A stretch of DNA of 52,854 bases. It comes from Chloroflexota bacterium (lineage in GTDB: Bacteria > Chloroflexota > Anaerolineae > UBA1429). The notes beneath the pieces were generated by a model, which saw only the letters and a program-made list of their open reading frames with translations, did no database searches and was not told the origin of the DNA. How positions within the stretch are numbered: the first letter of the stretch is position 1; each line of letters starts with the position of its first letter. A program made the position numbers and the translations under genes. Shown here in pieces: positions 26,678 to 32,370 of the stretch. The stretch is taken from contig JAAYAW010000097.1 in assembly GCA_012719135.1 (NCBI GenBank), positions 1 to 52,854 on the forward strand, written 5' to 3'.

Positions 26678-27163
26678 ATGAGGCTTGGCATACTGAGCGA
26701 CATCCACGACAACATATGGGCGCTGGGAACTGCGTTGGGCCTGCTTAAGGATTGCGATGCCCTGCTTTGTCTCGGAGATATTTGCTCTCCATTCACAATG
26801 GTTTCCATCGGCGAGGGCTTTGAAGGGCCGATTCACGTAGTGTGGGGAAACAACGATGGCGATCGGTTGCATGCGGCTCACAGTGTGGAGCGTTTGGGCC
26901 GCGTGACCTTTCATGGTGAGTTGGGCGAGCTGGAGCTGGGCGGTCAACGCGTCGCCATCACGCACTGGCCGGATATCGGCCAGGCTCTCGCCCGTGGCGG
27001 GACCTACGATCTCGTATGTCATGGTCACAACCACAGGCGGAGCGTCGCGTCGTTCGAGCGCACGACGCTCCTGAACCCGGGCGAGGTCATGGGGCGTTTC
27101 GGAGAGCGCAGTGTCGCCGAGTATGACACGTCCACACGTGCAGCGAACCTGCTGCTGTTCTGA
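26678..27163 (+). CDS. YfcE/MJ0936-type metallophosphoesterase
   Basis: 161 residues of the small calcineurin-like phosphoesterase family. The metal-site motifs appear in order: ILSDIHDNIWAL (D-x-H), CLGDICSP (G-D), VWGNNDGDR (G-N-x-D), ITHWPDIGQ and VCHGHNHRRSV (G-H-x-H). Relatives hydrolyse phosphodiesters such as cyclic nucleotides or model substrates. It begins 13 nt after cinA and ends at a strong terminator, so it closes the ffh operon. The natural substrate is not readable. Confidence 0.92.
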   Translation: MRLGILSDIHDNIWALGTALGLLKDCDALLCLGDICSPFTMVSIGEGFEGPIHVVWGNNDGDRLHAAHSVERLGRVTFHGELGELELGGQRVAITHWPDIGQALARGGTYDLVCHGHNHRRSVASFERTTLLNPGEVMGRFGERSVAEYDTSTRAANLLLF

Positions 27164-27180
27164 GCCACGTGCGTGTAGCA

Positions 27181-27216
27181 CCGGGGATCCGCCGTGGACG
27201 GCGAATCCCCGGTTTT
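27181..27216 (+). terminator. Strong intrinsic terminator of the ffh operon
   Basis: A 13-bp stem with one mismatch (27181-27193 with 27200-27212) and a 6-nt loop, followed by TTTT (27213-27216). Confidence 0.9.
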
Positions 27217-27245
27217 CGTGCCAGGTTGTGTTCTACCTGCGCAAC

Positions 27246-27263
27246 CGCGAATGGTCATTCGCG
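27246..27263. promoter_or_regulatory. Perfect palindrome upstream of the sigma-factor gene (candidate operator)
   Basis: CGCGAATG and CATTCGCG form a perfect 8-bp inverted repeat around GT. It is in the short gap between the terminator and the sigma gene, where the promoter must lie. I do not see a convincing sigma-70 pair; GCAACC (27241) could be an ECF-like -35 but this is weak. There is no T tract, so it is not a terminator. Confidence 0.5.
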
Positions 27264-27314
27264 TAGAGTATGGTGAACGGAGACGCGGTTGGATCTCGGG
27301 GAGGCAATGTTGGG

Positions 27315-27947
27315 GTGGCGTCCGTTGATGACGAGCGCCTGTGGGTACTGCGTGCCCAACAGGGCGACCAGGAAGCGTTTGCGAACCTAGTCGAAGCGTA
27401 TCAGCGTCCGGTGTACAGCCTCGCGTATCGCATGTTGGGGAATCCTAGCGATGCCGAAGATGCTGCGCAGGAGGTGTTCGTACGCGCATTTACGCACATG
27501 GAGAGTTACGATGCCACGCGCAAGTTCTCATCCTGGATTCTCTCCATCGCCTCCCACTACTGTATTGACCGGCTTCGGCGGGGGCACGGGCGCCAGGTCT
27601 CGCTTGACGACATGGAGCCCGATCGATGGCTCCCGGACACGGCCCCCGCTCCGGAGAGCGAGGCCATGGACCGCGATCGCGAGGAACAGATACGTCGACT
27701 GCTGGCGCTGCTGCCAGAACAGCACCGGCTCGTGATCATACTGAGATACTGGCACGATTTATCGTATGAGGAGATCGCCCAAGTGACATCCACGACCGAG
27801 AGTGCCGTCAAATCCCGTCTGCACAGGGCTCGTGAGGCCATGGCCGAGGCCCTGGCCGCGGACAGGGAAGCGGCTGCCCTTCCTCGGGCAGAGGATCAAG
27901 TCTTGGCGGAAAGGAACAGGAGCCATGCCCTATATCGGGCCATCTGA
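27315..27947 (+). CDS. ECF-type RNA polymerase sigma factor (SigW-like)
   Basis: 210 residues with sigma region 2 (about 10-90: GDQEAFANLVEAYQRPVYSL, NPSDAEDAAQEVFVRAF, FSSWILSIASHYCIDRLRR) and region 4 (about 125-180: LLALLPEQHRLVIILRYW, SYEEIAQVTSTTESAVKSRLHRARE). Regions 1 and 3 are absent, as in ECF factors. The GTG at 27315 is preferred because GGGGAGG (27298-27304) lies 10 nt before it; an in-frame ATG at 27270 has no Shine-Dalgarno. The 3' end overlaps the next gene by 23 nt, which suggests coupled translation with a membrane-bound anti-sigma factor. The regulon is unknown. Confidence 0.93.
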   Translation: MASVDDERLWVLRAQQGDQEAFANLVEAYQRPVYSLAYRMLGNPSDAEDAAQEVFVRAFTHMESYDATRKFSSWILSIASHYCIDRLRRGHGRQVSLDDMEPDRWLPDTAPAPESEAMDRDREEQIRRLLALLPEQHRLVIILRYWHDLSYEEIAQVTSTTESAVKSRLHRAREAMAEALAADREAAALPRAEDQVLAERNRSHALYRAI

Positions 27948-28473
27948 GACCGTCCAGGAGAGTGCGCGGCGGACACGCCGGCTGTACGGGCGTTCGACCT
28001 CGGTGAGGCCTGTGAGCGCCGAGTCTCTTGGCGTCACCGCCGAGAGCGCTGCCGAACTGGATACCCTCCTGGCTTCGGTGACGCTAGTCGATCCTCCGCC
28101 ATCGTTCGCCATCCGGGCCATGGCACGCGTGGAGCAGAGCAGGCGGCGAATGCGAGCACTACGAATTATCCGTATTGGGCTCGCGCTAGTTGTGCTCGCG
28201 GCTGGCCTGGCGGCAGGGACCGGCATGCTGGTCACCGCACTGCGATCCGCCGATCCGCAGATCGTCAACGGGTTGGCGCGTATCCTGTCACAACTGGCCG
28301 CGATCCCGGGCGCCGTACTGCTCGCCATCCGGGTGATCGTGCGAACGCTGCCCGGACATCCCACCGCGCTACTGGCCGCATGGGCTGCCGTAGCCATCCT
28401 CGTTGGAGGCCTTTGGATCAAGGCGCTCGCCGCTGCCCAGCCAGATGGGCTCCGTATCCGCCAGCGCGCCTAG
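27925..28473 (+). CDS. Putative membrane anti-sigma factor
   Basis: 182 residues. A basic cytoplasmic N-terminus of about 75 residues is followed by two hydrophobic segments (about 79-101 and 125-175, the latter possibly two helices). It has no H-x3-C-x2-C zinc motif, so it is not a classical ZAS-domain anti-sigma factor. The assignment rests on position: it overlaps the sigma gene by 23 nt, with AGGAG before its ATG, and has the usual cytoplasmic-head/membrane layout. It could instead be an accessory membrane protein. Confidence 0.6.
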   Translation: MPYIGPSETVQESARRTRRLYGRSTSVRPVSAESLGVTAESAAELDTLLASVTLVDPPPSFAIRAMARVEQSRRRMRALRIIRIGLALVVLAAGLAAGTGMLVTALRSADPQIVNGLARILSQLAAIPGAVLLAIRVIVRTLPGHPTALLAAWAAVAILVGGLWIKALAAAQPDGLRIRQRA

Positions 28474-28515
28474 GGGAACACAGTTGACCCGAACACGGGG
28501 CAATCGGAGGTATTG

Positions 28516-29655
28516 ATGTATTCGAGGCTCAGAACATACATGGTCGTCGTTATTCTGCTAATGGCATCCAGCCTGATGCCAGTATCCGCCGACTCCGGTG
28601 ACATATCGCTTTTTGGACAGAGCCTGGTGATCAGATCGGGAGAGCGGATCGCCGGTAACGCCTCCGTCGTGGGAGGCTCTGCAGAGATCCAGGCGGGAGG
28701 AACACTCACCGGTGACCTCGCTGTCGTGGGGGGCAATGTCCGCATCGCGGGCACCGTCGAAGGCGCAGTGGTCGTCATCGGCGGCAAGCTGGAACTGGAT
28801 GGCACAGCCCGGATCGTGGGCGACCTCGTAGCCATGGGTGAGTTCGTTCGGGATCCCGATGCACAGGTGATTGGGAACGTCGTCGCGGGGGCTGAGGCCA
28901 CCGGGCGCATGGCACAGCTTGGCAGTGCCTTGCGAGGCGACCTTGGCGCAACGCCGCCGCTGATAGATCGAGCGTCCGAATCGGCTCCGGTGCTTACTCT
29001 GAAGCGGATCCTCGGATGGATTGGTGGCTTGATGGTTCTGCTGGTCATTGGCGTCGTTGCAGCCTTCGTCTTCCCCGGACCCATCGATCACATGGGCGAC
29101 GTGATGTCGCGGTCGTCGATGCTCTGTCTGGGCATGGGGGTACTCACTCTCGTGGCCGCGTCTATCCTGATGCCCCTCCTGACGATCATCATTGTGGGCA
29201 TACCTGTCGTCATGGTGCTGGGCGTAGCTCTGGCACTGGGATGCCTCCTGGGCTGGATCGCATCGGCTGCCGTCGTAGGCGACAGAGTCGTGCGGGCCAC
29301 TTCGGGCTTTGGCCGAGGCGGCAGAGTGGCGGTAGGCATTGTGCTGCTCACACTCATCGGGCGCATACCCTGCCTTGGCGGGCTGGCCACCTTGCTGGCG
29401 GTGTGTTGGGGCCTCGGCTCGGTGGTGTTGACCCGCTTTGGCACCAGTGAAGAGCGGATCTGGGCCCCCTTTGCCTCACTGGCCGGCGATGCTGCGGCTT
29501 CGGCGGCGCCCCAGTCACCGCCTGAGAAGCCGGCGTACCCGTCCCCAGCGGCGAGCCACACCGAAGCAGCCACAGTCGAGCCTACGGCAAAGGACGACAC
29601 CAGACCGCTGGATGACTCCGATCTGGATTCCGAAATGGACGAATATACGGGTTAG
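28516..29655 (+). CDS. Bactofilin-like polymer-forming membrane protein
   Basis: 379 residues. A signal peptide or signal anchor (about 7-25, ending near SADSGD) is followed by right-handed beta-helix repeats (about 30-115) of the polymer-forming cytoskeletal (bactofilin) type: GNASVVGGSAEIQAG, GDLAVVGGNVRIAG, GAVVVIGGKLELDG, GDLVAMGEFV. Four or more membrane helices (about 158-320) follow, then a Pro/Ala-rich acidic tail. With a signal sequence the beta-helix would face outside, unlike cytosolic bactofilins. GGAGGT precedes the ATG at 28516. It is the third gene of the sigma-factor transcript and ends at a strong terminator. Confidence 0.85.
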   Translation: MYSRLRTYMVVVILLMASSLMPVSADSGDISLFGQSLVIRSGERIAGNASVVGGSAEIQAGGTLTGDLAVVGGNVRIAGTVEGAVVVIGGKLELDGTARIVGDLVAMGEFVRDPDAQVIGNVVAGAEATGRMAQLGSALRGDLGATPPLIDRASESAPVLTLKRILGWIGGLMVLLVIGVVAAFVFPGPIDHMGDVMSRSSMLCLGMGVLTLVAASILMPLLTIIIVGIPVVMVLGVALALGCLLGWIASAAVVGDRVVRATSGFGRGGRVAVGIVLLTLIGRIPCLGGLATLLAVCWGLGSVVLTRFGTSEERIWAPFASLAGDAAASAAPQSPPEKPAYPSPAASHTEAATVEPTAKDDTRPLDDSDLDSEMDEYTG

Positions 29656-29680
29656 GGCGCCAAGTTTTACGCCAATCATA

Positions 29681-29710
29681 GAGGAGGCGGGCGTGCCCGC
29701 CTCCTCTTTT
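29681..29710 (+). terminator. Strong intrinsic terminator of the sigma/bactofilin transcript
   Basis: GAGGAGGCGGGC (29681-29692) pairs perfectly with 29695-29706, followed by TTTT and further T-rich sequence. Confidence 0.92.
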
Positions 29711-31368: not shown

Positions 31369-32370
31369 TCACACCGGGGCCAGAGACCGCCGGAGGATCG
31401 GCAGGTGCCGCAACGCTTCACCGGCGCCCAGCGCCGTGCAGAGCATGGCGTTCTCGGCTACATGGCAGGGGATACCAGTCTCCTGAGTGAGGTACCGATC
31501 CACGTTCCGAAGAAGCGCTCCTCCCCCGGAGAGCACCATCCCACGATCGATGATGTCCGAAGCCAGTTCCGGCGGTGTCTTTTCCAGAACCGACCGCACG
31601 GCCCCTGCCACGGCGGTCAACGGCTCGGAGAGAGCATCGGTGACTTCGGCCGACGTAACCGTGATCGTTCGCGGCAGTCCTGCGACGGTATCACGACCGC
31701 GAACCTCCATGGTGAGCGGCTCATCGAGCGGCAGGGCACTGCCGATGCTGATCTTGAGCTCCTCCGCCGTATGCTCTCCGATCATCAGGTTGTACTTGCG
31801 CCGGACATAGTTGGTGATCGCCATGTCAAAGCTGTTGCCAGCCACCCGCACAGAGCTGGATACCACGATGCCGAACATCGAGATCACCGCCGCCTCGCTG
31901 GCGCCGCCACCGATGTTTACGATCATGTTCCCGGAGGGTGTGCCGATCGGCATATCGGCGCCCAGAGCCGCCGCAAGCGGCTCGGGAAGAAGGTATGCGA
32001 CGCGCGCGCCTGCCTGTATGGCCGCATCCCGGACTGCGCGGCCCTCGACGCTCGTTACGCCCACGGGCACGCTGATCATGATCTCCGGCCGTCGCTCCAT
32101 GCGGCTGCACACCTTGGAGATAAAGTAGCGGAGCATTGCCTCGGTCACGACATAGTCCGCGATGACGCCGCTTCGCATCGGGCGCGCCACCTCGATGGTC
32201 TCCGGCGTTCTCCCCAGCATCGCGCGCGCTTCATTCCCAACGGCCAGAATCCGGTTGTCGCTGACGGAGATGGCCACCACGGAAGGCTCGTTCAGCACCA
32301 CGCCCTTGCCGCGTACATATACGATCACGTTGACCGTACCGAGATCAATGCCGATTTGCTTCCCGAACAT
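31369..32370 (-). CDS. mreB: Rod shape-determining protein MreB
   Basis: A bacterial actin that organises elongation-mode wall synthesis. 333 residues with actin-fold motifs: [25 protein letters not shown] (phosphate 1, here T-V-N where many have T-A-N), [42 protein letters not shown] (phosphate 2) and [12 protein letters not shown] (adenosine motif). It has its own promoter (32406-32434). mreC, mreD and rodA are not beside it, unlike the usual mreBCD cluster. The upstream gene encodes a membrane coiled-coil protein. Confidence 0.95.

Follow-up and report, generated by a model that had tools for sequence, protein, structure and literature searches.

The 52,854-nucleotide contig JAAYAW010000097.1 of a Chloroflexota bacterium (Anaerolineae, UBA1429; assembly GCA_012719135.1), hereafter the window, carries on its plus strand three consecutive genes, which encode an extracytoplasmic function (ECF) sigma factor, a putative membrane anti-sigma factor whose gene overlaps the first, and a protein that combines a signal peptide, a beta-helix and several membrane helices. 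The trio is flanked by two hairpin terminators, and a candidate promoter precedes it. The features of the locus are as follows.

27241..27246 (+): -35 element GCAACC of the candidate autoregulatory ECF promoter, conserved upstream of the sigma gene (profile score 21.8)
27262..27265 (+): -10 core CGTA, 15 nt past the -35 element (among relatives, CGTA at N15 in 56 sites and at N16 in 23)
27246..27263 (+): palindrome CGCGAATG-gt-CATTCGCG, covering the spacer of the promoter and the adjoining ends of its -35 and -10 elements
27315..27947 (+): SigW-like ECF sigma factor, likelier GTG start; longer open reading frame (ORF) 27270-27947 from ATG; Pfam Sigma70_r2/r4_2, closest solved chain SigW
27925..28473 (+): RsiW-like membrane anti-sigma factor that has lost its zinc motif; a sigma-binding N-terminal part is followed by two or more membrane helices
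28516..29655 (+): predicted extracytoplasmic bactofilin-fold membrane protein, 379 amino acids, start ATG 28516 (alternative TTG 28513); AlphaFold2 model, fold match and relatives
28516..28590 (+): its signal peptide, cleavage expected after Ala25 (V-S-A) from family conservation
28603..28887 (+): its right-handed beta-helix, residues 30-124 (DSSP, model confidence, VIA-align)
29002..29436 (+): its membrane region, about five helices, predicted N-out/C-in (hydropathy peaks and Lys/Arg distribution over 27 members)
29596..29610 (+): DTRPL motif in its predicted cytosolic C-tail, kept in most close relatives
27180..27213 (+): intrinsic terminator of an upstream phosphodiesterase-like gene (26678-27163), by RNA folding
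29680..29707 (+): terminator of the trio, 12-bp stem, by RNA folding

The sigma protein (225 amino acids) consists only of regions 2 and 4, which match the Pfam models Sigma70_r2 over residues 40-104 (E 4e-22) and r4_2 over residues 139-191 (E 2.5e-18). Its closest solved chain is SigW of Bacillus subtilis (5wuq, E 3e-33; next best 1e-21). It scores below the curated equivalog cut-offs for SigW, with 154.6 bits against 209 for NF007223 and 141.7 against 243.1 for TIGR02948, and is, judged by its sequence, SigW-like and not SigW. Translation probably starts at GTG 27315, behind GGGGAGG, rather than at ATG 27270, because the latter lies only 4 nt past the -10 element.

The anti-sigma reading frame opens at ATG 27925 within the sigma gene, so that the two overlap by 23 nt (27925-27947). 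Searches of Pfam and NCBIfam with the second protein of the window gave no reliable match; the profile of its family (A3) finds RsiW as its top match (5wuq_C, E 2e-14), and zf-HC2 is matched by 12 of its 16 aligned members. An N-terminal sigma-binding domain (by the family match to RsiW), a gene adjacent to an ECF gene (here overlapping it) and a membrane anchor (by hydropathy) are features that it shares with class I anti-sigma factors. An earlier sequence-only reading of this stretch had pointed out that the usual zinc motif is missing. Hx3Cx2C is indeed absent, and the ligands are also lost in a genus mate (L004); the motif is retained at 25 of 30 loci of the class and at 53 of 74 loci from named genomes. 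The loss is lineage-specific, from zinc-bearing relatives, and it is ordinary, since only about 48% of membrane-bound class I anti-sigma factors carry the motif (PMC7406223).

The upstream terminator folds at -27.2 kcal/mol (z -3.9; none of 200 shuffles matched it) and is directly followed by TTTTCGT, and the one that closes the trio folds at -25.6 kcal/mol (z -4.9) and is followed by TTTTCGTTTGT. The sigma and putative anti-sigma identities, the overlap of 23 nt and the two strong terminators had all been read from the letters before, and the present searches and RNA folding bear them out.

The pattern GCAACC-N15-CGTA is a candidate autoregulatory SigW-type promoter of the trio. In relatives the shared upstream pattern is GCAAC[CT] (GAAAC[CT] in some), 15-16 nt and CGTA, with the family consensus TGCGTATAG. 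It precedes the sigma gene in 27 of 28 relatives of the class (mean 0.07 in dinucleotide shuffles, 0 in reversed and 0 in reverse-complemented sequence) and in 52 of 78 named loci. CGTA is also the -10 element in the promoter consensus of Bacillus SigW.

The palindrome at 27246-27263, which had been proposed as a regulatory site, is present as a perfect copy, and as an operator it was rejected. Perfect inverted repeats of 8 bp (spacers 0-8) number 20 in the window, within the 7-22 found after block shuffling, and in the promoters of 79 relatives the longest palindrome arms are 0-5 in 77, 7 in two and 8 in none. The best reading is therefore that it arose in the promoter spacer by chance.

Fold and conservation of the third protein

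In the AlphaFold2 model, residues 30-124 of the third protein form a beta-helix (predicted local distance difference test, pLDDT, above 93), followed by helices at residues 158-185, 201-224, 226-259, 267-281 and 287-307. Foldseek alone gave no significant match with this protein; VIA-align resolved the fold, its top three matches among solved structures being the bactofilins 6rib, 6ria and 2n3d (Z 14.8, 12.9 and 12.3; root-mean-square deviation, rmsd, 1.5-2.1 Å), and the next row having Z 10.6 at rmsd 11. Against 6rib, 90 residues of the beta-helix align at 1.5 Å with 29% identity. The window protein has no match to the Pfam bactofilin model PF04519, and Pfam and NCBIfam gave nothing reliable for it, so the assignment is made from the fold match together with the relatives, since 22 of the 27 members of the family alignment match PF04519 (best E 1.5e-7). 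The sole match to that model in the genome is a separate gene on another contig.

The signal-peptidase site is conserved throughout the 27 members: V or A at -3, A or G at -1 (G in one) and Q, D or E at +1 in every one, behind a positively charged n-region. The loops rich in Lys and Arg fit a beta-helix outside, about five membrane helices and a tail inside. The signal peptide, beta-helix and membrane helices described in the sequence-only reading are thus supported by model, fold match and cleavage site, and the beta-helix is predicted, from that site and the Lys/Arg pattern, to lie outside the membrane, as had been suggested.

Searched with the third protein, 223 of the 298 class genomes yielded relatives; in a sample of 121 genomes from across the phylum, 63 have the family. 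A homologous sigma gene lies directly upstream in 28 of the 29 best other loci of the class, and in all 29 the intervening gene encodes a membrane protein belonging to the family of the second protein. When named genomes were searched from the sigma side, 80 loci were obtained, almost all from Chloroflexota and from several of its classes. In 62 of these, the sigma gene, the anti-sigma gene (or an unassigned ORF in its place) and the bactofilin-type gene follow in order, as in Herpetosiphon aurantiacus DSM 785, Ktedonosporobacter rubrisoli, Roseiflexus sp. and Levilinea saccharolytica. Contigs common to both searches point to Anaerolineae as the class of the window. The gene order is, by this distribution, old, and the expectation that the trio would recur in relatives is borne out.

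Variants of this arrangement were also seen. A Toast_rack_N lipoprotein gene (PF17115) stands between the anti-sigma and bactofilin genes of a Thermoflexus-type genome (L104:1309-2184), and a similar ORF is inserted at the same place in L069 and L124, the PF17115 domain having been tested in L104 only. Two loci carry a second, more distant sigma-factor gene after the bactofilin gene (L090:4036-4638 and L117:5846-6442). The third protein of L018 has a C-terminal helix-hairpin-helix/DUF4332-like extension, expected to be cytosolic (Pfam match in one aligned member), and like extensions were judged by eye in L067, L068, L091 and L108. In another branch (L070, L080, L088, L107, L126 and L127) the third protein ends in a near-invariant Y[FWL]VQ[GA] tag, a C-terminus shared by none of the other ORFs in the loci fetched. 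In the window, the minus strand carries, 1.7 kb downstream of the trio, an MreB-like actin gene (31369-32370), identified by eye.

Candidate regulon

A promoter profile trained only on the sigma promoters of other genomes was run over both strands of 1.695 Mb (64%) of the genome, in which 1,419 genes were called, and sites over 18 bits were taken as strong. Nine such sites were found, of which eight lie directly upstream of genes, all with a spacing of 15 (in one case the site falls at the beginning of an ORF that was called too long). The genes and operons behind them are listed by score; the labels LiaI/LiaF-like, GlsB-like and ArsA-like are our own reading.

28.1: protein without family label, then ArsA-like ATPase
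27.0: Ser/Thr kinase with FHA
25.2: PspC
22.8: LiaI/LiaF-like membrane protein
22.6: DUF4342 pair
21.8: the window sigma gene itself
20.7: YccF with GlsB-like partner
20.5: membrane PDZ protein

These eight form a candidate SigW-like envelope-stress regulon, which does not agree with the sequence-only description of the trio as self-contained, given that seven other genes or operons carry the same promoter. The same promoter was found within 250 nt of 13 of 29 pspC orthologues in other genomes, with 0.06 expected. For the LiaF-like protein there were too few orthologues for such a footprint (site in 2 of 8 loci, own included). A loose promoter pattern showed no excess over the whole genome (32 against 55 in the backward control), and therefore only the profile plus the location test was used. 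Elsewhere in the genome, a LiaF protein (LiaF-like_C, E 2e-13; contig C48:32499-33059) has a promoter-like site of 12.7 bits, below control level.

Some candidate members share a short motif with the tail of the third protein. Near the C-terminus of its relatives, [DEGN]T[RK][PKR]L is found in L003-L006, L008-L012 and L022 and is lost in L007, in tails that are otherwise divergent. Within the genome, 4 of the 11 candidate regulon proteins contain [DE]T[RKQ][PKR]L, against 4 of 1,408 others (Fisher 1.4e-7, an optimistic value because the motif was widened to Q after the proteins had been seen). The copies are DTRPL in the bactofilin, DTKRL in PspC, DTQPL at the C-terminus of the LiaF-like protein and ETQPL in the ArsA-operon protein (loci L142, L172, L051). 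In genome G115 the motif is missing from the bactofilin as well as from the LiaF-like protein. One could imagine that an outer-face bactofilin-type polymer acts as effector and as a sensor that reports envelope damage to the multi-helix anti-sigma factor, and that the tag of the regulon proteins (bactofilin, PspC and LiaF-like) is read as phosphothreonine by the co-regulated kinase-FHA, although we regard this scenario as a long shot.

Proposed mechanism and its alternatives

Taken together, these results suggest, with a probability that we put at about 0.72, that the trio is the core operon, under its own control, of a cell-envelope stress response of the SigW/RsiW type in the Chloroflexota, with an outward-facing bactofilin-fold product. 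The ECF sigma factor would be held at the membrane by the anti-sigma factor, and a disturbance of the envelope or membrane would free it to transcribe its own operon from GCAACC-N15-CGTA, yielding more sigma factor, more anti-sigma factor (a negative feedback) and the third protein. Unlinked membrane-protection genes would be switched on as well, namely those for PspC, the LiaF/LiaI-like protein, YccF with its GlsB-like partner, DUF4342, the membrane PDZ protein and the kinase-FHA. The third protein would be exported and its signal peptide cleaved, placing the beta-helix on the outer membrane face, with about five helices as an anchor and a tail in the cytosol. It is most likely an envelope-strengthening scaffold, and it may also be a sensor that feeds back on the anti-sigma factor, because its gene is adjacent to the anti-sigma gene across the phylum. 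Of all this, the gene order, the promoter, the homologies, the predicted fold and the export signal are seen in the sequence, and activation by release, membership in the regulon, the scaffold or sensor role and any polymerisation are inferred.

Several observations weigh against this proposal. No PrsW gene was found in the genome; activation would therefore differ from that in Bacillus in at least one step, and the first cut of the anti-sigma factor, if any, would be made by another protease (M50 proteases are present in the genome). The anti-sigma factor has at least two membrane helices against one in RsiW, and its AlphaFold2 model is only of moderate confidence (pLDDT 78), a fold search with it being uninformative. 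The activity of the promoter, and the binding and inhibition of the sigma factor, are predictions made from sequence. The promoter core AAC...CGT is common to ECF sigma factors generally, and the reversed control of the profile scan gave three sites over 18 (20.4, 19.7 and 18.6); the YccF and PDZ members are therefore the least secure and may be due to chance. One other ECF-type gene (contig C55) lies outside the scanned part. The third protein itself may be a monomeric beta-helix, its polymerisation being putative.

The strongest competitor, to which we give somewhat less than an even chance, is that the third protein is mainly a co-regulator, which contacts the anti-sigma factor, within the membrane or outside it, and passes on the stress signal, as RseB does for RseA, and not a structural effector. 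Throughout the phylum its gene stays beside the anti-sigma gene, whereas the rest of the regulon is dispersed, and its conserved membrane region and the motif in its cytosolic tail would fit such a role. However, effector genes, too, often remain in sigma operons, the Toast_rack-type lipoprotein separates the two genes in some lineages (L104, L069 and L124), and a haloarchaeal homologue built in the same way lacks a neighbouring sigma gene. The present evidence would fit a scaffold and a co-regulator alike.

It is unlikely that other ECF sigma factors with a similar specificity use the remaining promoter sites of the genome and that the sigma factor of the window controls its own operon only. 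The generality of the AAC...CGT signature and the 10 Sigma70_r2 genes of the genome speak for that possibility. On the other hand, the promoter is missing from all five of the other ECF-type sigma genes scanned (best 5.4 against 21.8 for the window sigma gene), though such genes usually autoregulate, and the N15 spacing and CGTA are identical at all top sites. Very improbable, in our view, is an N-terminal helix that stays as an uncleaved anchor with the beta-helix inside: about 3% of bacterial bactofilins do have N-terminal transmembrane helices (PMC12448750), but the V/A-x-A pattern in all 27 members (allowing for the one G at -1), the positive n-region and the N-out/C-in distribution of Lys/Arg loops are difficult to reconcile with it. 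Finally, a self-contained three-gene module under a regulator that binds the palindrome is hardly credible, for, perfect as the palindrome is and bounded as the trio is by terminators, the palindrome overlaps promoter elements that 79 relatives conserve in its absence, its like are as numerous in the window as chance allows, and the promoter recurs at seven further sites of the genome.

If the envelope-stress proposal is right, a fold known from the cytoskeleton inside bacterial cells also serves outside the membrane, as the characteristic product of an envelope-stress sigma operon that spans a whole phylum. The Chloroflexota, whose envelopes and stress responses have been little studied, would gain a defined and testable sigma/anti-sigma switch with its promoter and regulon, and the SigW and Psp/Lia systems, best known from Bacillus, would be tied to a deep bacterial lineage.

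Comparison with known systems

The closest known counterpart is SigW-RsiW of B. subtilis, which provides the nearest solved sigma and anti-sigma factors by sequence and shares the two-gene core, the proposed autoregulation and, in the candidate regulon, a PspC protein alongside membrane proteins of the envelope. In B. subtilis, SigW controls yvlABCD, in which YvlC is a PspC homologue and YvlB a DUF4097 protein (PMC3498285, PMC9239133). The trio differs from it in its sigma score (154.6 against the equivalog cut-off of 209 bits), in a third gene of bactofilin fold, in a -35 element that is mostly GCAAC, in an anti-sigma factor with at least two membrane helices and no zinc motif, and in a genome where PrsW was not found. 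Relatives of the second protein resemble the class I (ASD) anti-sigma factors, being membrane-anchored with an Hx3Cx2C zf-HC2 domain, whereas the window copy and that of the genus mate have lost the zinc ligands, a condition common in the class (PMC7406223). YvlB/LiaG and LiaF (DUF4097/toast-rack) are likewise membrane-anchored repeat-domain proteins of SigW/Lia stress systems (PMC9239133), and a Toast_rack protein joins the trio operon in the Thermoflexus-type genome; their domain family differs from that of the third protein.

The third protein shares with the bactofilins (PF04519: BacA, CcmA and the Thermus bactofilin) the right-handed beta-helix, and members of its family match their model. 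Known bactofilins act on the inner membrane face (PMC12448750), whereas the prediction for this one is export by way of a cleavable signal peptide and anchoring by C-terminal membrane helices. A limited literature search, which is not proof, found no paper that links a bactofilin to an ECF operon or to phage shock, or that places one outside the membrane. The 'polymer-forming cytoskeletal protein' WP_284011324.1 of Haloarcula pelagica (tblastn E 2e-7 over 73%) has a signal-like N-terminus, beta-helix-type repeats and a C-terminal membrane region as well, but it is archaeal and has no adjacent sigma or anti-sigma gene. Operons of sigma factor, anti-sigma factor and target are already known, as are bactofilin-fold proteins with membrane helices, including this haloarchaeal relative of the same layout.

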